35,223 nt of DNA from a virus. Positions 1-8,775 of the stretch are shown here, in pieces. Below the pieces are notes generated by a model that made no database searches, was not told where the DNA came from, and saw only the letters and a list, made by a program, of their open reading frames with translations. The position numbers and the translations under genes were made by a program. Position 1 is the first letter of the stretch. Each line of letters starts with the position of its first letter. The stretch is taken from positions 1 to 35,223 of IMG/VR virus record IMGVR_UViG_3300044492_000058. One strand, given 5' to 3'.

Positions 1-198
1 CCTAACTAGTCGCGGACTAGCAGAAGGAATAAGCGCCAATTTTTGTTCCGTAGATAGGGACGAAAAGGGTATTGCAGTCTGATTTGGCCCTAGATAATCC
101 TGCAATTGCTTAAGTAGTGCAACATCGGACTCCAAGATGGTGCGACGCTCGCGCTTGCCCATAGTGGCACCATTTGTGCCACCGTTAGTGTGAGACAT
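1..198 (-). CDS. Unknown leftward phage gene, 3' end beyond the left edge
   Basis: An open frame runs from ATG at 198 leftward through position 1 without a stop, giving 66 codons of a protein truncated by the window. A second ATG at 204 is possible, but the AAAGGA ribosome-binding sequence (205-211) is spaced correctly (6 bases) only for 198. The visible part has a Gly/Thr/Asn-rich start, a basic KRERR patch at about residues 15-19 and a helical stretch rich in Leu, Gln and Asp. I do not recognise the family. It is divergent from the rightward early genes, and the gap between them carries operator-like palindromes, so it may start a leftward operon (inference). Confidence 0.6.
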   Translation of the reverse strand, partial: MSHTNGGTNGATMGKRERRTILESDVALLKQLQDYLGPNQTAIPFSSLSTEQKLALIPSASPRLVR

Positions 199-307
199 AT
201 TCATTCCTTTCACAGATCAAACCGCCTAATCGTTGGCGAACCATTAACCTAGCAATTCGCCACCAAATTTACAAGCTACTAAAATTTCCTTCCGCATACG
301 CACCATT

Positions 308-431
308 CACGCCAGGAGTGTCATTCTCTTATCAGTTTGATCTACCACCGATCTATTACTAATCACGATATAACGCTAGCGATCCGTTACCAAATAAGCT
401 ATTGCGCTAGTGGATTATTCCTCCTGGCGTG
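308..431. repeat. 11-bp inverted repeat pair flanking ~100 bases
   Basis: CACGCCAGGAG at 308-318 is exactly inverted as CTCCTGGCGTG at 421-431. Both arms contain the genome-wide octamer GCCAGGAG/CTCCTGGC, and each is followed closely by TGTCATT. The arms are about 100 bases apart, so they look more like paired protein sites or a large stem than a simple terminator. Confidence 0.6.
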
Positions 432-465
432 TCATTGCCTGATCCGACTAGTCGCATTTCGGTCC

Positions 466-517
466 TAGTCTCAGTTCTGAGAACTGAGAATCGTCTCATG
501 GGTTGAGACTAGTCTCA
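466..517. promoter_or_regulatory. Cluster of GTCTCA/TGAGAC palindromes, possible operators
   Basis: Three dyads lie side by side: two 9-base arms CTCAGTTCT / AGAACTGAG around a central G at 470-488, GTCTCA / TGAGAC at 493-509, and the perfect 14-bp palindrome TGAGACTAGTCTCA at 504-517. They share the half-site (A/C)GTCTCA. Several near-identical dyads in a divergent intergenic region are typical of a phage repressor/Cro operator. The protein that would bind is not identified in the window. Confidence 0.45.
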
Positions 518-615
518 TCACAACCCTAGGTAGAGTGGGCTTACAACCCCAAAATGAGAACAAACGTGAACAAACCTTGGGACGATAGATGACACCAGAA
601 AACCCCTAGAACCGC

Positions 616-833
616 CCTAGCGCCATCCTAGGCGCCTTAGCGTGCATCTTAGCCCTAGCTGTCCCAAGCTGGCCCTAGGGTTGACAGGCTAGGGATCGGT
701 GGGCAAGCTGGCGTTGCCAGCTTGGGCCAAGGGCCAGTGCCCGCGATCTAGAGCCATCCCTAGGGCCATCGGCTGGCAACCCCGCACAATGGGCCATCCC
801 AAGGGCCAACCCGCCTAGCGCCATCCTAGGCGC
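616..833. repeat. GC-rich, CTAG-rich stretch with a 20-bp direct repeat
   Basis: A 20-base sequence beginning CCTAGCGCCATCC occurs identically at 616-635 and 814-833, and each copy is itself partly palindromic. Between them are a perfect hairpin with CAAGCTGGC / GCCAGCTTG arms (704-724) and many copies of CCCTAGGG, GGGCCA and GCCATCCC. The stretch has no gene and is clearly richer in G+C than its neighbours. A replication origin, a packaging site or a regulatory RNA are all possible. Nothing visible decides between them. Confidence 0.5.
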
Positions 834-837
834 TAGT

Positions 838-887
838 GATCACGCGTTCGTGATCGACAAAGTGTTTTATGGTGCCAGAAAACACTT
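838..887. repeat. Two adjacent perfect hairpins
   Basis: GATCACG (838-844) pairs with CGTGATC (849-855) over a 4-base loop. AAGTGTTTT (860-868) pairs with AAAACACTT (879-887) over a 10-base loop. They lie immediately upstream of the proposed early promoter and could be protein-binding dyads or terminators of upstream transcription. There is no U-tract after the second hairpin. Confidence 0.45.
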
Positions 888-914
888 GTAAGCCCGCCAC
901 TAGCCGGCTATATC
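886..914 (+). promoter_or_regulatory. Possible sigma-70-like early promoter
   Basis: TTGTAA (886-891) and TATATC (909-914) are separated by exactly 17 bases. Each box matches four of six consensus positions. Transcription from here would start at about 921 and give a leader of about 215 bases that includes the strong hairpins at 1049-1114 before the first early gene. The match is weak, so this is only a candidate. Confidence 0.3.
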
Positions 915-1048
915 TTAGTTCAAGAAAAGCGAGACGAAAAGAAAAGGCCGAGCTAAACGCTCATTAGGACAGACACGAGGGTTCAAGTCCCCTCCCAATG
1001 GTCGCCGTTTGGTTGCGATCTTAGAAAAGAACTAAAAGCTTATGTTTA

Positions 1049-1114
1049 CCAGACCAGCTACCCGGCAAGCCGCAAGGTTTGCCGGGTAGCTGGTCTGGCC
1101 AGCATACGCTGGCC
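1049..1114 (+). promoter_or_regulatory. Leader with 20-bp perfect hairpin plus a second hairpin
   Basis: Bases 1049-1068 are the exact reverse complement of 1079-1098 (20 bp, 10-base loop). A second stem, GGCCAGC / GCTGGCC with loop ATAC, follows at 1097-1114 and shares two bases with the first, so the two may compete or stack. The structure ends 21 bases before the first early start codon, so it probably belongs to the leader RNA of the early operon. It could act in RNA stability, RNase III processing or attenuation (inference). Confidence 0.5.
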
Positions 1115-1135
1115 CAACCTAATGGAGTATATACA

Positions 1136-1369
1136 ATGGCACGCTATGACATTACCACAGTTGCTAGCCTACGTTGCGCGGTTAAAATGGCGAAAGCCAT
1201 TTACGTTCTGCCAAGATTTGGCACTAGTGAGCTATGGCTGAAAATCACTAAGGCGGAAGCAAGCAAGCTAATTGCTTGCTATGCTGATAGTGACACTCCG
1301 GAACACTGCGAAATGTTCGCTGGCACATTCGGCACAATGACCAATGGCGGAACACTTTACCTTGGATAG
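1136..1369 (+). CDS. Small conserved phage early protein, unknown function
   Basis: The 77-residue product begins MARYDITT and has the segment YVLPRFGTSELWLKITK at about residues 24-40, a pattern seen in small phage proteins of unknown role. The ATG at 1136 is chosen because GGAG lies nine bases upstream in a leader ending GTATATACA, the same arrangement found before the gene at 4403. A longer frame to 1079 would run through the leader hairpin and lacks a ribosome-binding site. It is the first gene of the rightward early series and is followed directly by hairpin cassette 1. Confidence 0.65.
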   Translation: MARYDITTVASLRCAVKMAKAIYVLPRFGTSELWLKITKAEASKLIACYADSDTPEHCEMFAGTFGTMTNGGTLYLG

Positions 1370-1431
1370 CTTGCTTTTCTGGTAGCATCTAGCTTGCTAG
1401 ATGCGGCCACAAGCGCAAGCTTGGCACTACC
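1369..1431 (+). repeat. Intergenic hairpin cassette 1
   Basis: This copy of the recurring early-region cassette has the left flank GCTTGCTTTT directly at the stop codon, a hairpin with arms GCATCTAGC (1385-1393) and GCTAGATGC (1396-1404), and the right flank AAGCGCAAGCTTGGCACTA. The flanks match the other copies, whereas the stem sequence does not. The flanking GCTTGC and GCAAGC can also pair with each other, closing an outer helix. Confidence 0.7.
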
Positions 1432-1454
1432 TAATCAAATGACAGGATAATGAA

Positions 1455-1673
1455 ATGGTAAAGATTATTGCTAGTGAAAGCTTCCCTAAGCAATGTGCAA
1501 CGGTAGCGTTTAGCGTTGTTCTACGGGATTTTGGGCCAAACAAACCGCATCGGTTCGTTACCCATTGCCGGAACGACGATGACGGTTCTCATTATTGGGG
1601 ACATTATTTTAACGATGAAAGTGAAGCGCGCGAGGATTTCACGTTGCGCGTCGCACGCTATAGGAAAGGATAA
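1455..1673 (+). CDS. Small phage early protein, unknown function
   Basis: The product is 72 residues. Its central part (PHRFVTHCRNDDDGSHYWGHYF, given here only as a pattern of aromatic and His residues around 31-52) resembles small phage proteins described only as hypothetical. Translation starts at ATG 1455 after an AGGA sequence. It follows cassette 1 and is separated by only four bases from the next gene, so the two are likely co-translated. No catalytic motif is seen. Confidence 0.6.
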   Translation: MVKIIASESFPKQCATVAFSVVLRDFGPNKPHRFVTHCRNDDDGSHYWGHYFNDESEAREDFTLRVARYRKG

Positions 1674-1677
1674 TACA

Positions 1678-1902
1678 ATGACAATTTCATTTACTGGGCC
1701 AGAGCAAGTTAACACATATACAATGCTGGTGATTAAATCCGCGATGAAGTTTTACCTTAACTCAGGTGGTATGAAAGTAAACCGGGCTTATACGCCAACG
1801 AATATGTTGCGTGCGGCTGGCGGATTTACTGGCAAGATTTACAAGCGCAATCAAATGCCGCAAGCCATTGCCGATTTGGAAAACTTGCTAGCCACTAATT
1901 AG
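1678..1902 (+). CDS. Small phage early protein, unknown function
   Basis: The product is 74 residues starting MTISFTGPEQ at ATG 1678, just after AAAGGATAATACA. The frame is open further upstream, but that part overlaps the preceding gene and has no ribosome-binding site. The sequence is mildly basic with a Gly-rich middle (about residues 29-50) and a helical C-terminus. I do not recognise it. It is followed immediately by hairpin cassette 2. Confidence 0.6.
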   Translation: MTISFTGPEQVNTYTMLVIKSAMKFYLNSGGMKVNRAYTPTNMLRAAGGFTGKIYKRNQMPQAIADLENLLATN

Positions 1903-1971
1903 CTTGCTTTTCCCTAGGCTACTCCTGGCCCACGCCAGGAGTTAGCCTAGGCAAGCGCAAGCTTGGCACTA
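1902..1971 (+). repeat. Intergenic hairpin cassette 2
   Basis: The left flank GCTTGCTTTT is followed by a 17-bp stem with one bulged T. CCTAGGCTA (1913-1921) pairs with TAGCCTAGG (1943-1951), and CTCCTGGC (1922-1929) pairs with GCCAGGAG (1934-1941). The right flank GCAAGCGCAAGCTTGGCACTA then follows. The inner part of the stem is built from the dispersed octamer. Confidence 0.7.
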
Positions 1972-1995
1972 CCTAAACAATGAAAGGCTAACACA

Positions 1996-2178
1996 ATGTC
2001 ACGCAAAGATTTCAATTTGATCGCGCAAGCTTTCTATCAGACTAAGCCACTAGCTGATTGCGACACTAATCGTTCGCAGCAATGGTGGGATGATGTGCGG
2101 AATGTAGCTTATGCATTGCGCGAAACTAATCCGCGTTTTGATGTGTCACGTTTCCTAGCAGCTTGCGGAAAGGAATAA
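1996..2178 (+). CDS. Small conserved phage protein (NPRFDxxRFLxACG type)
   Basis: The 60-residue product ends with NPRFDVSRFLAACGKE, a C-terminal pattern common in small phage and prophage proteins of unknown role. A run with two Trp (QQWWDDV, about residues 29-35) precedes it. The start at 1996 follows GAAAGG with good spacing. The stop is five bases before the next start. The function is not known, and I rely only on this recurring pattern. Confidence 0.65.
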   Translation: MSRKDFNLIAQAFYQTKPLADCDTNRSQQWWDDVRNVAYALRETNPRFDVSRFLAACGKE

Positions 2179-2183
2179 CGCCA

Positions 2184-2447
2184 ATGCTAAATGATCATGA
2201 TATGCGAACGTTTCGCCAGACTGCTAAGGCGGTAATTATGCACAATCAGCATTTTGCCGATATTGAGCTAGACAGCTTATTGTTCCTTATGGAGTGCGAC
2301 GCGCAGAAGCTTATGCAACATGCGCGCGACACTGGCCACAACGGCTACCTGTCAACCCGTGGCTATGTGCTTACCGCATATACAAACCATGCTGACAAGC
2401 TTTGCGTATACGCAAGCGTGTCAGCTAGCTTGTTTGATAAGGATTAG
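2184..2447 (+). CDS. Small phage early protein, unknown function
   Basis: The product is 87 residues starting MLNDHDMRTF. AAAGGA lies about 11 bases upstream, overlapping the end of the previous gene. A TTG further upstream at 2163 would overlap that gene more and is not preferred. The protein looks mixed alpha/beta with several His and Cys residues but no clear metal-binding pattern. It is followed by hairpin cassette 3. Confidence 0.6.
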   Translation: MLNDHDMRTFRQTAKAVIMHNQHFADIELDSLLFLMECDAQKLMQHARDTGHNGYLSTRGYVLTAYTNHADKLCVYASVSASLFDKD

Positions 2448-2503
2448 CTTGCTTTTCTGATAGTAGCCTAGGCCACTAGGCTACCGTCACAAGCGCAAGC
2501 TTG
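2447..2503 (+). repeat. Intergenic hairpin cassette 3
   Basis: The left flank GCTTGCTTTT begins in the stop codon of the preceding gene. The stem pairs GTAGCCTAG (2463-2471) with CTAGGCTAC (2476-2484), and the right flank is CAAGCGCAAGCTTG. The stem sequence differs from the other cassettes while the flanks are kept. Confidence 0.7.
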
Positions 2504-2534
2504 AATACGTCAATATATACAAAGGAATAGACCA

Positions 2535-3140
2535 ATGGATAATGACATTAAAGCTTTGACGGATGCAATGCCAACCCTTCCGGCTAGATCGCAGGAATTC
2601 GCGCGTTCACTACTGGCACAAGCTGCGGATCGCGGATTAAGCGAAAAGCAAATGTTTTGGGTACGCAAACTAGTAGCCGATGCAAACAAGCCCAAGGAAA
2701 ACACTAGCGTTAACCTAGGGGATTTTTCTGGCGTAATTGAATTGTTTAAGAACGCCAGTGAACGCCTAAAACATCCCAAGGTTAGGCTACAATTGGCCGA
2801 TGGTTCGCCAGTAGCACTTTCCGTTGCTGGCACTAATGCACGCTTTCCTGGCACAGTGAATGTGACCGATGGCAAGCCATTTGGTTCCGCCATTTGGTAT
2901 GGCCGGGTTGACACTAGTGGCAAGTGGGATATATCCGGCAAGGTTGATATGGCAACGGCTACTGCCCTTACCGCCTTGCTGGCGAATTTCGCTGCTAATC
3001 CTGCCAAGGTTGCCAGCGCCTATGGCAAAGCCACAGGTAGCTGTTGCTTCTGTGCTCGCGAGCTTACAGACCAGCGCAGTGTATCAGTAGGCTATGGCCC
3101 AATTTGTGCCGATAAATTTTCATTGCCTTGGGGGAACTAA
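2535..3140 (+). CDS. DUF6011-like protein with C-terminal zinc-binding motif
   Basis: At 201 residues this is the largest protein of the first early block. Its C-terminal part (about 168-200) contains CCFCARELTDQRSVSVGYGP followed by IC: a CxxC...C arrangement typical of the DUF6011 family, which probably binds zinc. The N-terminal half is helical, and the middle (about 75-125) looks like a beta-rich domain. The family is widespread in phages and actinobacterial genomes, but its biochemical role is unknown. The start at 2535 follows AAAGGAATAGACCA. A degenerate hairpin cassette follows. Confidence 0.75.
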   Translation: MDNDIKALTDAMPTLPARSQEFARSLLAQAADRGLSEKQMFWVRKLVADANKPKENTSVNLGDFSGVIELFKNASERLKHPKVRLQLADGSPVALSVAGTNARFPGTVNVTDGKPFGSAIWYGRVDTSGKWDISGKVDMATATALTALLANFAANPAKVASAYGKATGSCCFCARELTDQRSVSVGYGPICADKFSLPWGN

Positions 3141-3200
3141 TAGCTTGCTCTTATGACAGCTACCTAGCTAGCTAGGTAGCTATCACCAGCGCACGCTGGC
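3140..3200 (+). repeat. Diverged hairpin cassette 4 (24-bp palindrome)
   Basis: AGCTTGCTCTT resembles the left flank of the other cassettes. It is followed by a perfect 24-bp palindrome at 3158-3181, made largely of repeated CTAG, and by a small stem CCAGCG / CGCTGG. The usual right flank is missing, so this copy is either degenerate or a variant. Confidence 0.55.
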
Positions 3201-3246
3201 CTAGCATCCTGCTAGCGTTTACCTAACCGATGAAAGGCTATTCCGA

Positions 3247-3498
3247 ATGTTCAACGATCTAGAAATGTATCTGTATCGCAATCATACCTTTGTGGTTGGC
3301 GGTAGCGGCCGAGTGTTCATACACGCTGGCCAGACCATAGACGCGCCACTGGTAGCCGAAGCGGCTAGCATCGATGCGGCTATGCTGGCAGTAGATGCCA
3401 TCAAAGCTGGCCAGGATGGAATGCCAGCTTTCAGCCTGCTAGTGGCCCTTGGCCTACTGGCACAGGCTGGCAAGGGCCAGGATGCGGCCCACCATTAG
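3247..3498 (+). CDS. Small phage early protein, unknown function
   Basis: The product is 83 residues. An N-terminal beta-like part (YRNHTFVVGGSGRVFIHAG) is followed by an Ala-rich helical C-terminal half (about 33-78). There is no signal peptide, since the hydrophobic Ala/Leu stretch is internal and amphipathic. ATG 3247 follows GAAAGG. No family is recognised. Confidence 0.55.
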   Translation: MFNDLEMYLYRNHTFVVGGSGRVFIHAGQTIDAPLVAEAASIDAAMLAVDAIKAGQDGMPAFSLLVALGLLAQAGKGQDAAHH

Positions 3499-3513
3499 GA
3501 CCACATCAACGCC

Positions 3514-3542
3514 AACCCGCCTAGGAGCGTCCTAGGCGGGTT
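3514..3542 (+). terminator. 13-bp perfect hairpin after the 3247 gene
   Basis: AACCCGCCTAGGA (3514-3526) pairs perfectly with 3530-3542 over a GCG loop. Only TTT follows, so the U-tract of a classical intrinsic terminator is very short. It may be a weak terminator or an RNA-stabilising stem. The rest of 3499-3664 has no gene but more CCTAGG-type palindromes. Confidence 0.4.
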
Positions 3543-3664
3543 TGGAGGGTTGGCCGCGCCTACCCTACCAGCCCCTAGGCCAGACGCCGTGTGGGACCAT
3601 CCTAGGCGGCCCATCGTTCGCCTAGGCTACCAGTAGATCACCATAAACAAGGAAACCTAACCAA

Positions 3665-3871
3665 ATGGCTTATGTGTCTCCCAATTTCGCCACTAAGAAA
3701 GCCCTTAAGGATGCTTTGGCCAGTGGCCAGACCATAGAAGTTTTCCAACCCGGCTTAGGTAGCGTGCCAACTAATGGCCGCATTGCACTAGAGGGGCCGC
3801 ATTACCCGAAGCCGCACAAGTGGTATGCGGAAGCAATGATGGAGAACGGAAAGCTAGTCAAAGTGAAGTAG
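3665..3871 (+). CDS. Small conserved phage protein (EGPHYPKPHKWYA type)
   Basis: The 68-residue product starts MAYVSPNFATKKALK and carries EGPHYPKPHKWYAEA at about residues 43-57 and a Lys/Val-rich end. Small phage proteins with this YVSPNF...PHYPKPHxWYA pattern are common and have no known function. ATG 3665 follows AAGGAAACC. Hairpin cassette 5 begins at its stop codon. Confidence 0.7.
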   Translation: MAYVSPNFATKKALKDALASGQTIEVFQPGLGSVPTNGRIALEGPHYPKPHKWYAEAMMENGKLVKVK

Positions 3872-3938
3872 CTTGCTTTTACCTATGGTTCTCCTGGCGT
3901 ACGCCAGGAGCTACCATAGGCAAGCGCAAGCTTGGGAC
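3871..3938 (+). repeat. Intergenic hairpin cassette 5
   Basis: The left flank GCTTGCTTTT precedes a long stem. CCTATGGT (3882-3889) pairs with ACCATAGG (3913-3920), around an inner perfect 20-bp palindrome (3891-3910) built from CTCCTGGC and GCCAGGAG. The right flank GCAAGCGCAAGCTTGGGACTA follows. It is the clearest example of a cassette whose stem incorporates the dispersed octamer in both orientations. Confidence 0.7.
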
Positions 3939-3959
3939 TAAACAACTAGGGAATATACA

Positions 3960-4166
3960 ATGGCACAAGTTACACAAGATACCTTGCGGCTGGAAATTCT
4001 AACGGAAGCGCGCGACCAATATCGGAAAGCGCGTAATATGCGCCATGCTACCAGCGCAGAATGTTCATTGCTTTCGCTTAAGATTGCAGAGTGTGAAGCA
4101 ATGATGGAAGAAATGCTACATCCCGCGCCTACTAGACGGGATTATTCAATCGATTGGAGCGCGTAA
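3960..4166 (+). CDS. Small helical early protein, unknown function
   Basis: The product is 68 residues, strongly helical, rich in Ala, Glu, Arg and Met, with a probable short coiled coil over residues 8-50. The leader is AGGGAATATACA before ATG 3960, close to the leader of the genes at 1136 and 4403. Its stop overlaps the next start by one base (TAATG), so translation is probably coupled. Confidence 0.6.
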   Translation: MAQVTQDTLRLEILTEARDQYRKARNMRHATSAECSLLSLKIAECEAMMEEMLHPAPTRRDYSIDWSA

Positions 4167-4324
4167 TGACAGGCACTGCTAAGGAAAGAACGGAAGGTAA
4201 GCGAATCCGCAAAGATCGCGCGATTAAGAAATTGCGTGGCCAATTTGAAGGCGTACGGCAGCAAATGATCCGCGATGAAGTTAATGCAAAGCGTAAACAA
4301 CTAATGGACAAGATGAAAAGTTAA
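4166..4324 (+). CDS. Small, very basic helical protein, unknown function
   Basis: This 52-residue gene starts at ATG 4166 inside the TAATG junction, with GGAG nine bases upstream, and stops at 4324. The product is dominated by Lys and Arg (segments KRIRKDRAIKK and AKRKQLMDKMK), so it could bind nucleic acid (inference). Hairpin cassette 6 starts directly at the stop codon, as it does for the other early genes, which supports the gene being real. Confidence 0.6.
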   Translation: MTGTAKERTEGKRIRKDRAIKKLRGQFEGVRQQMIRDEVNAKRKQLMDKMKS

Positions 4325-4388
4325 CTTGCTTTTACCATACTACCCTAGCTTGCTAGGGTAGCGTGGCAAGCGCAAGCTTGGCACTACA
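4322..4388 (+). repeat. Intergenic hairpin cassette 6
   Basis: ACTTGCTTTT, the perfect stem CTACCCTAGC (4340-4349) / GCTAGGGTAG (4352-4361), and then GGCAAGCGCAAGCTTGGCACTA. The flanks match cassettes 1, 2 and 5 and the stem is again unique. Confidence 0.7.
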
Positions 4389-4402
4389 ATGGAGTATATA
4401 CA

Positions 4403-4606
4403 ATGGAATTGATTGACGGAATAAAGCCACCACGCAAAATTACCCGGCAGGATGCTATTGCCAGAGTAATTGCGCTAGAGGATATGATCCACAATCTAGT
4501 CAAAGATTGTGACGTATCCGGACTAATTGATGCAGCTAATGCATTGGATAAGCTAATAGATAAACCACTAGATGCTGTATATACAGCTATTTGCGAGGGT
4601 AACTAA
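4403..4606 (+). CDS. Small early protein, related to the 4688 product
   Basis: The product is 67 residues and mostly helical. It contains IALEDMIHNLV (about residues 28-38), matching RLEDMMHKLV in the product of the gene at 4688, which suggests a shared origin. The leader GGAGTATATACA before ATG 4403 is nearly identical to that of the gene at 1136. The function is unknown. Confidence 0.6.
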   Translation: MELIDGIKPPRKITRQDAIARVIALEDMIHNLVKDCDVSGLIDAANALDKLIDKPLDAVYTAICEGN

Positions 4607-4624
4607 ACTAACAGATTGTTTTGA

Positions 4625-4674
4625 CCATTACAGCATGGCAACATGCTGTAGTGGCCAGCACAAGCTGGAAAGTG
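4625..4674 (+). repeat. Intergenic hairpin (diverged cassette)
   Basis: CCATTACAGCATG (4625-4637) pairs with 4642-4654 over a GCAA tetraloop (13 bp with one G-T pair). A short stem CCAGC / GCTGG follows. The conserved flanks of the other cassettes are absent. GCAA is a stable GNRA-type loop, which favours an RNA function. Confidence 0.5.
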
Positions 4675-4687
4675 GAAAGGAAACACA

Positions 4688-4888
4688 ATGTATATTGAAT
4701 CCCCAATTGAGCGTATCTTGCGACTAGAAGACATGATGCACAAACTCGTTGCTGATAAGCCCGATAAATTCACGCTTGCGTTGCAGCTTGCCGAGAAAAA
4801 CGGTAACGATACGTTTTTCTTTGAAAACCGTGAAATTGTGGTTGCTTATGGAAAGTATCTATTGCGTTACCTAAATGAAAGGTTGTAG
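4688..4888 (+). CDS. Small early protein, paralogue of 5316 and partly of 4403
   Basis: The product is 66 residues. Its N-terminal part shares LEDMMHKLV with the 4403 product. Its C-terminal part (NDTFFFENREIVVAYGKYLL, about residues 38-57) aligns with NETFVFEGNTFVIAYAVYLI of the 5316 product, so it looks like a small duplicated family. ATG 4688 follows GGAAAGGAAACACA, a good ribosome-binding site. The function is unknown. Confidence 0.6.
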   Translation: MYIESPIERILRLEDMMHKLVADKPDKFTLALQLAEKNGNDTFFFENREIVVAYGKYLLRYLNERL

Positions 4889-4892
4889 TAAA

Positions 4893-5252
4893 ATGCAACA
4901 ATGGTATGGCGTAAGTTATGGCAATGGCAACGATGGCGTAAGCCATTTTTCCCCCAATATCCTAGTATATACAGACGACCCTTGGACACTAGCTAGGGCT
5001 GCAATGATTTTTGAATTTAAGGATAGAGTATGGGCCAACGAAAACACTGATTTGGACCATAATGGCGACGAAATGGTATCGGCAACGATATATGAAGGGC
5101 CAGATGGTGAAACTGAATTCGGCGCAGCTTATATGATTGTAGAAGTGTTCCCCGTTAATGAAAGTGAGTATAATTGCACTAAATACGATAGTATATACGA
5201 AGCATTTGACGATGAAACTGTCAAACTAATTCAAGAGGGTATCGATACTTAA
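4893..5252 (+). CDS. Acidic early protein, unknown function
   Basis: The product is 119 residues, starts MQQWYGVSYG and is clearly acidic, with many Asp and Glu. The ATG at 4893 is preferred over an upstream in-frame codon at 4875 because GAAAGG sits about 11 bases before it and the longer version would overlap the previous gene. Small acidic early phage proteins are sometimes DNA mimics that inhibit host enzymes. That is only an idea here, since no family is recognised. A perfect inverted repeat follows the gene. Confidence 0.6.
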   Translation: MQQWYGVSYGNGNDGVSHFSPNILVYTDDPWTLARAAMIFEFKDRVWANENTDLDHNGDEMVSATIYEGPDGETEFGAAYMIVEVFPVNESEYNCTKYDSIYEAFDDETVKLIQEGIDT

Positions 5253-5260
5253 TCCAATCG

Positions 5261-5287
5261 ACTCCTGGCGGTCAATCCGCCAGGAGT
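5261..5287 (+). repeat. 11-bp perfect hairpin after the 4893 gene
   Basis: ACTCCTGGCGG (5261-5271) pairs with CCGCCAGGAGT (5277-5287) over TCAAT. Both arms are the dispersed octamer in opposite orientation. There is no U-tract after the stem, so intrinsic termination is unlikely. Confidence 0.6.
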
Positions 5288-5315
5288 ACAGTTCTTCTAT
5301 CGAAAGGAAAATAAA

Positions 5316-5486
5316 ATGTTGACAATATCTTGGGATCGCCCGATGCTAAATCGGTTTTCTAGCAAAGTAGAACGGCTACTAAAACAAGGTTGTGAACGGA
5401 ACGAAACGTTTGTTTTTGAGGGTAATACATTTGTTATTGCCTATGCAGTATATCTGATCGAATACCTAGAAGAAAGGATAAAATAA
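5316..5486 (+). CDS. Small early protein, paralogue of the 4688 product
   Basis: This 56-residue gene runs from ATG 5316 (after GAAAGGAAAATAAA) to a TAA that shares one base with the next ATG at 5486. Its C-terminal half aligns with that of the 4688 product (NETFVFEGNTF versus NDTFFFENREI, then IAYAVYLIEYLEER versus VAYGKYLLRYLNER). That alignment is the main reason to call it a real gene. The function is unknown. Confidence 0.6.
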   Translation: MLTISWDRPMLNRFSSKVERLLKQGCERNETFVFEGNTFVIAYAVYLIEYLEERIK

Positions 5487-5752
5487 TGCGTTTCTCACTA
5501 GAAATAAAGCAAGATATCTACAAAGTAGCCCGATTTCATTACTTAGATAAGCATATGTGCCAAGCTTGGAATCGTAATCGTTCTGAACGAGAATTACGAT
5601 TGTTGACAGGTTGGGTCTGGCAGTCTAAAATCGATAATCAATATCAAATGGGACTGAAAACAATAACTGCGGCCATGCGGGATGCATACTATACACTAAT
5701 AGAACAACGTTCCGCTCCTGGCGTGGTCAATCGGATTAGGAGAGTTGCGTAA
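5486..5752 (+). CDS. Small phage protein, unknown function
   Basis: The product is 88 residues, basic and helical, with many Arg and Trp residues (LTGWVWQSK near the middle). It overlaps its neighbours by one base on both sides (TAATG), which places it in the operon that leads to the Tas-like gene. The ribosome-binding sequence is AAAGGATAAA. No domain is recognised. A dispersed octamer copy (5715-5722) lies inside its coding sequence. Confidence 0.6.
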   Translation: MRFSLEIKQDIYKVARFHYLDKHMCQAWNRNRSERELRLLTGWVWQSKIDNQYQMGLKTITAAMRDAYYTLIEQRSAPGVVNRIRRVA

Positions 5753-6177
5753 TGAAACCGCAAACACCAGAACAAATCATAGCATATGGTGAAGTTGCCA
5801 CATCATTACGCGAATGGTGTAAAACTAACGGTAAAAGGGCACAGGATATTAACGCCATTGTCGGGAAACCAGCTAATTATTCTGCCGGATTTCAATGGTT
5901 GAACGGTAAGGGTGCGCCATCTCAGTATAATCGGGTATTACTTGCCAAAGCTACCGGAATTCCGGAAGAAAAACTAGCCAAAAGAAAGAGTTTCGATCAA
6001 GTAACAATTGAAAAACCACCTACCACAAAATTTGTCAGTAAAACTTCAGATATTTTGAGTTTTACTGTCACTGATACTGGCGAAGCAAGGATAAAACTAG
6101 ACGTTACACTGCCAATGCAAAGTGCAGTGCCATTGTTTAGGTTAATACTTGATGCTGGTGTCGTTATGGGGAGTTAA
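5752..6177 (+). CDS. Putative HTH-type DNA-binding regulator
   Basis: The product is 141 residues. Residues 15-75 look like a helix-turn-helix domain: a helix with LREWCKTNGKRAQDINAIVG, then WLNGKGAPSQYNRVLLAKATGIPEEKL, reminiscent of Cro/C1-type domains. The C-terminal part (about 95-141) is a small beta/alpha segment, perhaps for dimerisation. It precedes an Arc-type gene and the Tas-like gene in one operon with spacings of a few bases, so it may regulate that operon. HTH recognition is by pattern only, and the family is not certain. Confidence 0.5.
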   Translation: MKPQTPEQIIAYGEVATSLREWCKTNGKRAQDINAIVGKPANYSAGFQWLNGKGAPSQYNRVLLAKATGIPEEKLAKRKSFDQVTIEKPPTTKFVSKTSDILSFTVTDTGEARIKLDVTLPMQSAVPLFRLILDAGVVMGS

Positions 6178-6179
6178 TC

Positions 6180-6365
6180 ATGGGTAGACAAGTAACAACT
6201 AAAGATTTTCCACGTATTCACGTACGACTAACGCCAGAATTGTATGAATTTCTTAGTAAAGAAGCTGCTAAAGAATTCCGTACTATAAATAACGAAATAA
6301 CACTGCGGTTAACGCAATCAATGCTCCTGGCGAAGAAGGATGTAACCTATAATGAGCGAAACTGA
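6180..6365 (+). CDS. Arc-type ribbon-helix-helix DNA-binding protein
   Basis: The 61-residue product matches the Arc/MetJ fold. A short strand FPRIHVRLT (about 10-18) is followed by the helix PELYEFLSKEAAKE and by TINNEITLRLTQSMLLA (about 35-51), the usual place of the second helix. Such dimers bind operator DNA. The start at 6180 is two bases after the previous stop. Its 3' end overlaps the Tas-like gene by 14 bases, so the two are probably translationally coupled and co-regulated. It may be the operon's own repressor (inference). Confidence 0.75.
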   Translation: MGRQVTTKDFPRIHVRLTPELYEFLSKEAAKEFRTINNEITLRLTQSMLLAKKDVTYNERN

Positions 6366-7200
6366 AACAACTGATTTTGATGCTGCGGAAATTCTTGGTA
6401 GTATTGAGCGTTTAACTAAGGATTTGCGTAACGCATCTGTAACGTTATCTAATCGTGAAGTAAGATTTCTAGTAGATAGTTACTATGCAATGCAGCGTGA
6501 TCGTATTCGCGCTAGTCACCAGACTAGAACACTTGAAAAGAACGAAGAACCGCATGTAGTATTGAATTGGCTTACTGGACAGAGAAGTACACTAGAGAAA
6601 CAAGTTGCCAGAGCATTAGATGCATATAGTGCAAGTAATCCGGCAAGTGCATGGGCCAGGAGCATTACAGGTATTGGTCCGATCATTTCGGCAGGATTAG
6701 TAACTCATATTGACATAACAAAAGCGCCAACTGTTGGGCATATTTGGCGTTATGCTGGCCAAGATCCAACTATGGTATGGAATAAGAAAGAAAAACGCCC
6801 GTGGAATGGTTCATTGAAACGACTTTGTTGGATTATTGGCGAAAGTTTCGTTAAAGTATCTACTAACGATAACGATATTTATGGTAAAGTATACGTTGCT
6901 CGTAAGCAACAAGAAATTATTAAGAATGAAGCACTAGAATTCAAGTCACAAGCAGAACATGCATTAGCAACCAAGAATTTTAGTGCCGATACTGAGGCAA
7001 AGAAGCACTATTTAACTGGCAAATTACCGCCAGCCCATATACATGCTAGAGCGAAACGATATGCAGTAAAATTGTTCTTGTCACACCTGCATCATGTGAT
7101 GTATGAGTTGCACTTTAACGAGCCGCCGCCGAAGCCCTATGTTATTGACCACATGGGCCATACCCATTTCCTTGCGCCACCGAACTGGCCTAGGAAATAG
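6352..7200 (+). CDS. TasA-like Nop-domain protein of a TIGR-Tas system
   Basis: The 282-residue protein has a helical N-terminal region (about 1-100) and a part resembling the C-terminal domain of IS110 transposases and Nop proteins: SITGIGPIISAGLV (104-117, a helix-hairpin-helix GIGP), WRYAGQDP (132-139), NGSLKRLCWIIGESF (152-166) and a His-rich helix HARAKRYAVKLFLSHLHHVM (231-250). It ends GHTHFLAPPNWP. The DEDD/RuvC domain that IS110 transposases carry at the N-terminus is missing, and there is no HNH motif, so it is not a transposase, TasR or TasH. Twelve bases after its stop a 36-base-period dual-spacer array begins. Nop-domain protein plus such an array defines TIGR-Tas. By analogy it binds tigRNA and target DNA, and without a nuclease it would only bind or would recruit a partner. 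Confidence 0.82.
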   Translation: MSETETTDFDAAEILGSIERLTKDLRNASVTLSNREVRFLVDSYYAMQRDRIRASHQTRTLEKNEEPHVVLNWLTGQRSTLEKQVARALDAYSASNPASAWARSITGIGPIISAGLVTHIDITKAPTVGHIWRYAGQDPTMVWNKKEKRPWNGSLKRLCWIIGESFVKVSTNDNDIYGKVYVARKQQEIIKNEALEFKSQAEHALATKNFSADTEAKKHYLTGKLPPAHIHARAKRYAVKLFLSHLHHVMYELHFNEPPPKPYVIDHMGHTHFLAPPNWPRK

Positions 7201-7212
7201 TCAAGCTTCAAG

Positions 7213-8756
7213 AGTGTGCCACTAATATCGGAACGAGTTATTCCTGATCAGAGTACCAACAAGAGCGAACGAGTTACTTCTAGTGACAGTAACATCTCAG
7301 AAGAACGAGTTAGCAAACCAGATAGTAACATGAATGAATAACGAACCAGCGCGCTGGATAGTAACATACTTCTGAAGTGAGTCAGGTATAGTAATAGTAA
7401 CATGGCGTCGAAACGAGTTATTGCTGATCAGAGTGCCAACAAGAGCGAACGAATTAATCCCAGTGAGTGTGCCAAGGTAGACTAATGAGTCACCTGTTCA
7501 GATAGTAACATTTTAACCGAACGAGTTAAACGGAAGAAGTGTACCATCAATCGAGAACGAGTTATCAAGAAAGAATAGTACCATCAGACCAGAACGAGTC
7601 ATCTAAGTGGATAGTAACAAAGGGTTTGAACGAGTTAGCAGATCGGACAGTAACATTGTAATAGAACGAGTTAGGTTCTCAGATAGTACCATTTGACATG
7701 AACGAACCACGCTATCAGTGATAGTATCATGATTGTCGAGTGAGTCATTCCCCGTAACAGTAACACATTGCCGAAACGAGCCACAAACTAGAGAGTGTGC
7801 TAAGTAAATGGAGCGAGTTATTGGTTCATGAGTGTACCCGCGAAACCGAACGAGCCATTTGGAGCCAGAGTTCCATTCGAGTAACAGCGAAAGTTACTTG
7901 GCGATAGTAACATAGGAGCGGAACGAATCAGTGATGATATAGTGTACCATCATAAGTGAATGAGTCACAAAGCATGAATAGTACCATTTCACACGAACGA
8001 GTTAATGTTCCGGAGTGTACCATCGATCAAGTAACGAGTCATGACATTATAGTGTACCAGAAAGCGTAAACGAGTTACCTCTTACGATAGTAACATGCTA
8101 GATGAACGAATAAATTAAGGAGGAAACGAGAGAGTTATTATTCCAAGTGTACCACTGTGCAGAACGAAAGTTAAGTTCGCGAATAGTACCAGACCGTTGG
8201 AACGAGTTAGAAAATGCCGAGAGTACCATCGCTAACGAACGAGTCAAATCACCTTAGTGTGCCAACAAAATGTGAATGAGTTACGGAAGCAAACAGTAAC
8301 ATTTCCGATGAACGAGTTATGCACTGGAATAGTAACAAGAAAGGATAACGAACCAATTAGTCGGAGTGTGCCAATTGTAGGAGTGAACCACCTATCTCGG
8401 ATTAGTAACAAAGATAGGAGAGTGAACCAATCCGGTTGATAGTAACAAAATTGGTCAGTGAACCCTCAAAATCGATAGTATCATTGTAGGGAAGTGTAAC
8501 CAATTGGTTGGTTAGTAACAGCAACCCCGAGTGAGCTATGACCGGCTAGTGTACCACTGGTGTTTAAGCGAATCGTCATATGAGATAGTAACAAATGAAA
8601 CGAGTGAACCACCCGTCTTGATAGTAACAACGTACGGTAGTGAATCATTTAGTCGCGATAGTAACACAATGGTAGAATGAACCACCCTGCATGATAGTAA
8701 CAATCTGGTTTAGTGAACCATCGTGTATGACAGTAACAATTTCCCGGAGTGTTTCT
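7213..8756 (+). repeat. TIGR array, 42 units of ~36 bases with two 9-base spacers each
   Basis: The unit is motif 1 (consensus ATAGTAACA, variants AGTGTACCA, AGTGTGCCA, AGAGTACCA), a 9-base spacer A, motif 2 (AACGAGTTA or AGTGAACCA, nearly always with central GA) and a 9-base spacer B. Clean units start at 7250, 7286, 7322, 7358, 7394, 7430 and 7466. I count 42 motif-1 copies from 7213 to 8730, most exactly 36 bases apart and some 37-38. The last unit has a degenerate motif 2. Spacers share no common sequence. Published TIGR arrays are processed to 36-nt tigRNAs with two 9-nt spacers, which fits exactly. The array starts just after the Tas-like gene on the same strand, so it is probably co-transcribed. 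The conserved GA in motif 2 would suit a kink-turn, as in box C/D RNA (inference). Confidence 0.88.
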
Positions 8757-8775
8757 CCGGGCGGATCATTCCGCC
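8743..8775. terminator. Twin hairpins closing the TIGR array
   Basis: CCCGGAG (8743-8749) pairs with CTCCGGG (8755-8761), and overlapping it GGCGGA (8760-8765) pairs with TCCGCC (8770-8775). They lie between the end of the rightward array and the end of the leftward late operon, where a bidirectional barrier would be expected. Neither strand has a U-tract after the stems, so intrinsic termination is unproven. They could instead set the 3' end of the array transcript. Confidence 0.45.

Follow-up and report, generated by a model that had tools for sequence, protein, structure and literature searches.

The window analysed here is the whole stretch of 35,223 nt of the IMG/VR virus record IMGVR_UViG_3300044492_000058. 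Its early region contains eight RNA-like elements, seven of them between early genes of the same strand and the eighth in front of the first gene. Each consists, in this order, of a 12-nt flank F, a variable hairpin A and a 14-nt segment B, and is therefore called an F-A-B element. All six cassette places named in an earlier sequence-only reading are present, and two further copies were added at 1037–1112 and 4613–4668 (Table 1). In the following, gene-following copies are referred to by the first position of A.

Table 1. Positions of the F-A-B elements in the window.
Element	Position	Strand	F	A	B	Remarks
0	1037..1112	+	1037-1048	1049-1098	1099-1112	leader before first early gene
1	1368..1423	+	1368-1379	1380-1409	1410-1423	F overlaps stop TAG 1367-1369
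2	1901..1965	+	1901-1912	1913-1951	1952-1965	F overlaps stop TAG 1900-1902
3	2446..2503	+	2446-2457	2458-2489	2490-2503	F overlaps stop TAG 2445-2447
4	3142..3199	+	3142-3153	3154-3185	3186-3199	diverged copy of the earlier reading
5	3870..3934	+	3870-3881	3882-3920	3921-3934	F overlaps stop TAG 3869-3871
6	4323..4380	+	4323-4334	4335-4366	4367-4380	F overlaps stop TAA 4322-4324
7	4613..4668	+	4613-4624	4625-4654	4655-4668	absent from the earlier reading

As had been claimed, F lies at the stop codon of the preceding gene or close to it, with the exception of the leader copy at 1037, which has no preceding gene. The stop codon overlaps F in five of the seven gene-following copies (1380, 1913, 2458, 3882 and 4335) and lies 1 nt before F in copy 3154 and 6 nt before it in copy 4625. 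Among the elements with a stop codon found close by, the spacing from stop codon to A ranges from 5 to 23 nt. In all eight window elements A is followed by B without a spacer. Hairpin A has no conserved letters. Contrary to the earlier reading, its stems are neither perfectly complementary nor entirely different from each other: most contain 1x1 or 1x2 interruptions or a bulge, and CTAG-CTTG-CTAG as well as CTCCTGGC each occur twice. The ACTA tail is absent from copy 2458, and the diverged copy listed at 3140 (element 4) carries CCAGC-GCAC-GCTGG in B instead of CAAGC-GCAA-GCTTG. B of element 7 reads CCAGC-ACAA-GCTGG, F and B being altered jointly. Element 0 has the loops GCAA in A and AUAC in B.

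A blind scan for a hairpin of at least 8 pairs, directly followed by a 5-bp tetraloop hairpin, returned eight matches on the + strand of the window, namely the seven gene-following cassettes (1380, 1913, 2458, 3154, 3882, 4335, 4625) and an unrelated one at 815; the - strand gave one match, and 200 dinucleotide shuffles of positions 1–7200 gave a mean of 0.015. The cassette at 1037–1112 was skipped, its B helix being able to continue into A; first spotted by eye, it was recovered with the corrected scan. The observation that the T-run stands on the wrong side for termination proved correct. No window cassette qualifies as an intrinsic terminator, i.e. a G+C-rich hairpin followed by a T-run, and none is among the five terminator-like sites between 880 and 7300, which are no more numerous than in shuffles (mean 7.1).

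The outer GCTTGC/GCAAGC helix that had been proposed corresponds to pairing between F and B and is supported by folding and by pair counts. The 3′ flank is, however, also a hairpin of its own, which had been missed, so that the element has two exclusive folds. In the first, F pairs with B to give one long rod extending A; in the second, B folds back to form a small tetraloop hairpin next to A. Both states carry compensatory changes. The rod comprises 21–27 pairs in the five standard-sequence copies of the window, versus 12–17 in A alone. This range holds for six of the seven gene-following elements, while copy 4625 reaches 18 and the leader element 32. In element 4 the rod has two broken pairs and B is intact. 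In the related locus L005, the element at 2563 occupies the junction of window copy 3154 and keeps A and a B-like hairpin with almost no rod.

The folding energies favour the rod over the alternative fold in 13 of the 14 window-lineage elements. Of 21 elements, 18 have a positive gain by rod formation and 15 lie within the best 5 % of F shuffles; B lies within the best 5 % of its own shuffles in 19 of 21. Zero gain was obtained for W4625, G9e5 and G10e2 as cut out, the latter two regaining the rod in longer stretches, and shuffle support is weak for K0500, G9e2 and G9e3 (F) and for G9e1 and G9e3 (B). Energy does not fix the strand, the reverse strand being more stable in 9 of 15 elements and equal in one; only the tetraloops CUUG and GCAA favour the + strand. 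The possibility that the B hairpin is the sole structure and the outer helix a false lead was rejected, as folding and counts show both to be kept. By reasoning, a pseudoknot with B formed and F on its loop was discounted in the window: the loop has only four letters and a linker is missing, so that there is little space for it.

Covariation was counted for both states. For the rod, ten distinct F+B sequences gave 91 % paired cells with seven cells changed on both sides; none of 500 shuffles scored as high and slid versions were paired to 17–51 %. The B helix was paired in 100 % of the cells with four double changes, a score reached by none of 500 shuffles. Across phage families, again with ten distinct rows, the UUG:CAG rod core is paired to 83 % (four double-change cells, 2 of 500 shuffles as high) and the CCAG:CUGG core to 100 % (four double-change cells, 0 of 500), the shuffles overstating the significance in all these counts because the rows are related. 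Three letters change jointly at one position (U/A/U, G/C/G and A/U/A) and at a second (U/G/C versus G/C/G), and such three-way compensatory changes are present in distant relatives. A loss of significant pairs in further genomes had been named as evidence against an RNA structure; the opposite was found.

The same F-A-B family occurs in two close relatives, and G009, a phage with 80 % capsid identity, shows its design in different sequences. A strict detector built on this common design gave 19 matches on the + strands of 12 sources, one of which (L111, 5350) is not beside a leader, compared to one match on the - strands and none in 60 block shuffles. Several elements in L110, L111 and L112 were called by eye, the strict detector finding none in L110 or L112. 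The covariance model R1 recovered one element outside the window lineage, in G009. No elements were found in L103 and L104, the fetched regions of G010 and G011, and none above shuffle level in relatives collected via phrog_4285, DUF6011 and one early protein (L006, L007, L011–L023, L026, L027). The pattern AATGGAGTATATACAATG retrieved L046–L056 and an already known contig, with elements in the latter only. An exact pattern scan of genome contigs for host or prophage copies, covering a single sequence form, yielded 17 stretches, all lacking a hairpin A between their flanks. A DNA comparison of window positions 1–8000 with the phage database gave no match. The contigs L111–L117 have no protein match to the window early genes and are connected to the window through G009 and G010. 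No Rfam family covers F-A-B; miRNA, sRNA and snoRNA matches were set aside as weak matches to hairpins.

Many other early junctions in G009, G010 and linked contigs are occupied by twister or hammerhead ribozymes. In L110, L111, L112, L116 and L102, Rfam revealed seven Twister-P5 above the gathering score and, below it, seven twister-P1 and two Hammerhead_3; one miRNA-family match was taken as chance. A motif script identified ten type III hammerheads in 13 loci, of which L113 and L114 repeat L111, and none in 100 shuffles. By our own tally, 15 of the 32 leaders in L110, L111, L112 and L116 have an Rfam ribozyme directly upstream, or 19 of 32 including the script hammerheads. Twister and F-A-B substitute for each other at orthologous junctions: the gene downstream of a twister-P5 in L111 has orthologs downstream of F-A-B in L112 and L116 (56 % and 54 % identity), and that upstream of a twister-P5 in G010 has one upstream of F-A-B in G009 (49 % over 39 aa). 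The script found no hammerhead CUGANGA and GAAA blocks with three stems in the window, L005 or L004, and the twister covariance model matched neither the window nor the F-A-B elements of the relatives. Since ribozymes stand in the same places in sister phages, F-A-B probably marks the points where one long early message, presumably a single transcript spanning the elements, is split into gene messages.

We consider the chance about even that F-A-B is a cis-acting intercistronic mRNA-processing element of the early transcript, cut in its rod state probably by a host double-strand RNase. This agrees with an earlier suggestion that the elements serve the processing or stability of a polycistronic early RNA; the context supports it, since twister and hammerhead ribozymes occur at equivalent junctions of relatives. 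The element lies between the stop codon of the upstream gene and the ribosome-binding leader of the downstream one, and A would leave a stable structure right behind that stop codon. F would zip onto B and lengthen A into the rod, B otherwise closing on itself. The rod, in contrast to the short A alone, may be long enough for RNase III or a similar enzyme; window elements reach the helix length that such a nuclease requires. While terminating on the upstream gene, a ribosome would sit on F and keep the A+B fold in place, so that cutting would follow the end of upstream translation. For rpsO, ribosomes are known to hinder an RNase E site close to the stop codon (PMC3014915). A more far-reaching proposal, that F-A-B constitutes a new class of intercistronic RNA that senses the terminating ribosome via F and switches between two folds, one of them cut by itself or by a host RNase, is put forward tentatively and is on balance unlikely.

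Comparable phage elements have been described. The RNase III sites of T7 are irregular hairpins of about 60 nt. An account of the T7 early transcript (PMC4858673) places these sites, R1.1 and others, between the genes of the polycistronic mRNA. F-A-B resembles them as an irregular hairpin between genes of an early phage mRNA but differs by its second exclusive fold (B), its placement at stop codons and its replacement by ribozymes in relatives; cleavage by RNase III is predicted. Hammerhead clusters in phages and prophages are described as several copies, each flanking one or few genes, and are proposed to cut long transcripts into gene-length mRNAs (PMC3088659). F-A-B shares this arrangement without sharing the CUGANGA and GAAA blocks or an Rfam match. 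Twister-P5 and twister-P1 occupy the same junctions in sister phages, yet their models do not match F-A-B and no twister occurs in the window.

Alternatively, A and B could act as an uncut shield, protecting the 3′ end of the upstream cistron and keeping the next leader free of upstream pairing in a REP-like or insulator-like manner, with or without an RNase E cut in the U-rich flank. The stable hairpin directly after the stop codon and B immediately ahead of the leader fit this explanation, as do the hammerhead junctions, which also have a hairpin between stop codon and ribozyme. The flanks hold UUUU or AUUU, a form of site preferred by RNase E. However, a shield leaves the F-B complementarity and the three-way covariation unexplained, and we regard it as a minor possibility.

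Somewhat more doubtful is an undescribed self-cleaving ribozyme class, with one of the two folds active, that would take the place of twister and hammerhead at part of the junctions. Such ribozymes are indeed its neighbours and its orthologous replacements, no Rfam family fits, and pistol, hatchet and twister-sister are reported to have been discovered by looking near known ribozymes and their genes (PMC10085705, PMC4604425). Pistol, however, is described with 10 highly conserved nucleotides (PMC4604425). In F-A-B a comparable conserved unpaired set was not found: each invariant core letter pairs in at least one of the two folds, the A (or C) that follows UUG is the sole nearly conserved unpaired core letter, and hairpin A has no conserved sequence.

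A DNA element carrying small genes as cassettes, also raised in the sequence-only reading, appears very unlikely, whether as a recombination site such as attC or as a palindromic mobile repeat. Integron attC sites share the location at stop codons, the conserved paired ends and the variable paired middle. Moreover, elements 1 and 7, each together with the next gene, are absent from L005, and the 30-nt A hairpin at window 1380–1409 is identical to L005 1156–1185 despite different preceding genes. Yet the F-A-B ends differ from the attC R boxes and show covariation rather than copying, which is not expected of a recombinase site; ribozymes occupy the same places in relatives; and gene flux is seen at plain junctions too, a small gene at about 4166–4324 having no counterpart in L005. 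No tyrosine recombinase was found in G000, G001 and G002 (PF00589 Phage_integrase in 0 of 3 records, which may be fragments, versus 14 of 14 control genomes).

Highly improbable, finally, is an antitermination RNA of the put type, binding RNA polymerase during its own synthesis: HK022 put is described as an early phage RNA of about 70 nt with two adjacent stem-loops (PMC9378689) and element 0 lies in the leader as put does, but HK022 has two put sites with an effect reaching 10 kb (PMC9378689), compared to seven further F-A-B copies between genes with two exclusive folds, put activity is abolished by mutations at specific letters whereas the stems of A drift freely, and the early genes contain no more terminator-like sites than expected by chance.

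In some phages, self-cutting ribozymes stand at many early gene boundaries. F-A-B occupies such places without a known catalytic core and with two folds. Ribozyme and F-A-B beside the same gene are natural swaps for testing what cutting at the boundary does, and they suggest a search method, namely to inspect what replaces ribozymes at orthologous junctions. F-A-B also offers itself as a candidate new ribozyme or processing activity. If the switch between the two folds holds true, the element would be a translation-gated equivalent of the twister and hammerhead ribozymes, constitutive in action, that occupy the same junctions in sister phages.

The family comprises eight members in the window: all six cassettes which the sequence-only reading had listed at 1369-4388 as an intergenic RNA-like family with compensatory stems are present, and two further copies extend it (see table). 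By a blind scan eight plus-strand matches were obtained, covering seven of the eight elements, at a shuffle expectation of 0.015. The elements consist of a flank F, a variable hairpin A and a segment B (F-A-B). F overlaps the stop codon in five of the seven copies that follow a gene, and in all five A starts exactly 10 nt past the stop codon, approximately the stretch covered by a terminating ribosome.

The window spans an entire IMG/VR virus record (35,223 bases), with rightward early genes and leftward late genes (tail fibre, tape measure, capsid, protease, portal). Rfam search of the window returned zero matches, and no DNA-level match to positions 1-8000 was found among 50,697 phage records. 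The phrog_4285 'transposase' protein matches IS116/IS110/IS902 weakly and is conserved in the contigs L004-L007. Directly behind its gene, about 1.5 kb without evident genes separates early from late genes and is packed with alternating imperfect motifs (GATAGTAACA, AACGAGTTA, AGTGTACCA, AGTGAACCA) at a spacing of about 36 nt with unrelated short spacers.

Coordinates and layout of the features
Feature	Position	Description
F-A-B layout	window	F 12 nt, A 30-50 nt, B 14 nt; A abuts B, zero spacer
Added elements	window 1037-1112; 4613-4668	F-A-B
Early genes	window ~1,140 to 7,200	rightward
phrog_4285 gene	window 6352-7200	'transposase'
Motif-rich stretch	window 7203-8757	no evident genes
Identical A hairpins	L005 1156-1185; window 1380-1409	letter-for-letter equal
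Variant core family	L112 about 6325-6365; L116 4031-4085	GUGA, CCAC, GUGG
Twister-like letters	L116 reverse strand 3080; L112 4991 and 5623	AATGTAGCC ... ATACAGAG
Small reading frame	L005 4489-4680	apparent signal peptide encoded by CTCCTGGCG hairpin

RNA folding yields mostly a single rod continuing A, in which the F parts AGCUUGC, a 1x1 mismatch and UUU face AAG, C and GCAAGCU of B. Once F is kept single-stranded, B folds on its own as CAAGC-GCAA-GCUUG. Of 14 window-lineage elements, 13 are more stable as the rod, by about 2 to 7 kcal/mol; the exception is the element with A starting at 4625 (W4625), where B is favoured by 1.5 kcal/mol. Both folds are preserved through sequence change. Compensatory changes in the rod (C-G to U-A, G-C to A-U, U-A to G-C or A-U) include double changes in seven cells, a value reached in none of 500 shuffles. 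The second pair of B occurs as A-U, C-G or U-A, and all B pairs are intact across 10 distinct rows. As the second letter of B pairs with F in the rod and with the thirteenth letter of B in the hairpin, three letters must change jointly; this is seen in W4625 and in K0500, another element of the lineage, and the elements W3154 and W1049 show repair in B only. The double duty of the B letters could explain why the flanks are near-constant while A, which needs just two matching changes, drifts.

The same family was found in 3300025930_000054 (L004), a nearly identical phage, and in 3300018481_000036 (L005), whose phrog_4285 protein is 88% identical. At orthologous junctions the sequence of A differs yet remains paired. 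One L005 hairpin identical to a window hairpin follows the gene that in the window precedes element 2. Where the window has element 4, L005 carries a longer A plus a B-like hairpin but no clear rod, which counts against a strict two-state rule.

The 9-mer CTCCTGGCG occurs 24 times in the window on both strands (0.12 expected; first 310, last 33164). It builds stems of some A hairpins, of hairpins in relatives and of an intergenic hairpin at 5261, which the CTCCTGGCG hairpin of a small L005 reading frame resembles. Its complement CGCCAGGAG occupies the ribosome-binding-site position before some late start codons.

The capsid scan yielded 13 loci. In 3300006358_000038 (G009, capsid identity 80%) our covariance model R1 matched one element (E 1.4e-4), and reading together with a strict detector of the F-A-B design gave five of the same design in other letters. 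Additional forms were picked by eye in 3300014969_000023 (G010, 76%), and a scan for the ribosome-binding leader common to both contributed seven further contigs. Across the distant contigs the core reads UUGA, hairpin A, CCAG, CUGG, with pairings UUG:CAG (rod) and CCAG:CUGG (B); the core-to-A gap has the same length on either side in the strict detector's matches. One family, in L112 and L116, has all three parts altered jointly. Counts over 10 distinct core rows argue for both folds, as support and not as probabilities, the rows being related.

In the same contigs Rfam gave seven Twister-P5 above the gathering score and seven twister-P1 and two Hammerhead_3 below it. The G009 hammerhead (111-base query) scored 32.2 bits, below the gathering score of 48.5; that of G010 had no Rfam match. 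Across 13 loci, including L113 and L114, which repeat L111, a structural script found 10 type III hammerheads, against none in 100 shuffles, and zero in the window, L005 and L004. The early regions of L110, L111, L112, L116 and L102 carry twisters or hammerheads at many gene junctions, with several classes per phage. In the first four of these, an Rfam ribozyme lies directly upstream of 15 of the 32 leaders examined, or 19 counting script hammerheads; judged by eye, several others follow F-A-B-like or twister-like structures. Typically a hairpin follows the stop codon, then comes the ribozyme or B, then the leader and the start codon. Twister-like letters at three sites are not among the Rfam matches.

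Protein comparison of flanking genes revealed exchanges, with the F-A-B of L112 7177, L116 4694 and G010 assigned by eye on fold, not by the strict detector: the L111 gene behind a twister-P5 is orthologous to the L112/L116 gene behind F-A-B, the G010 gene preceding a twister-P5 matches the G009 gene preceding F-A-B, and one junction keeps F-A-B in G009, G010 and L111. Exchanges between hammerhead and twister were seen as well.

Possibly F-A-B is itself a new ribozyme class, others having been found by looking near known ribozymes (PMC10085705, PMC4604425), but conserved unpaired letters are almost absent from its core. Rfam 15 holds no family covering F-A-B, and no description was found in a literature search on RNase III hairpins between cistrons, bistable RNase III RNAs, put, conserved phage hairpins, attC, hammerhead, R1.1 and phage twisters, covering few subscription journals. 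Phage intercistronic processing is already known as a kind; as far as this search reaches, an element with two folds that is linked to the stop codon and swappable with ribozymes is a new form of it.

Since the paired length of the rod is up to about twice that of A alone, the rod might be a substrate for a double-strand RNase where A+B would not; the T7 early transcript receives five RNase III cuts (PMC4858673). With F beginning at or near the stop codon, a ribosome that terminates there could keep the element open, similar to a case described for RNase E and rpsO (PMC3014915). Mainly because of the exchanges, there is reason to think that F-A-B performs the job of the ribozymes, cistron separation, a role also proposed for hammerhead clusters in prophages (PMC3088659).
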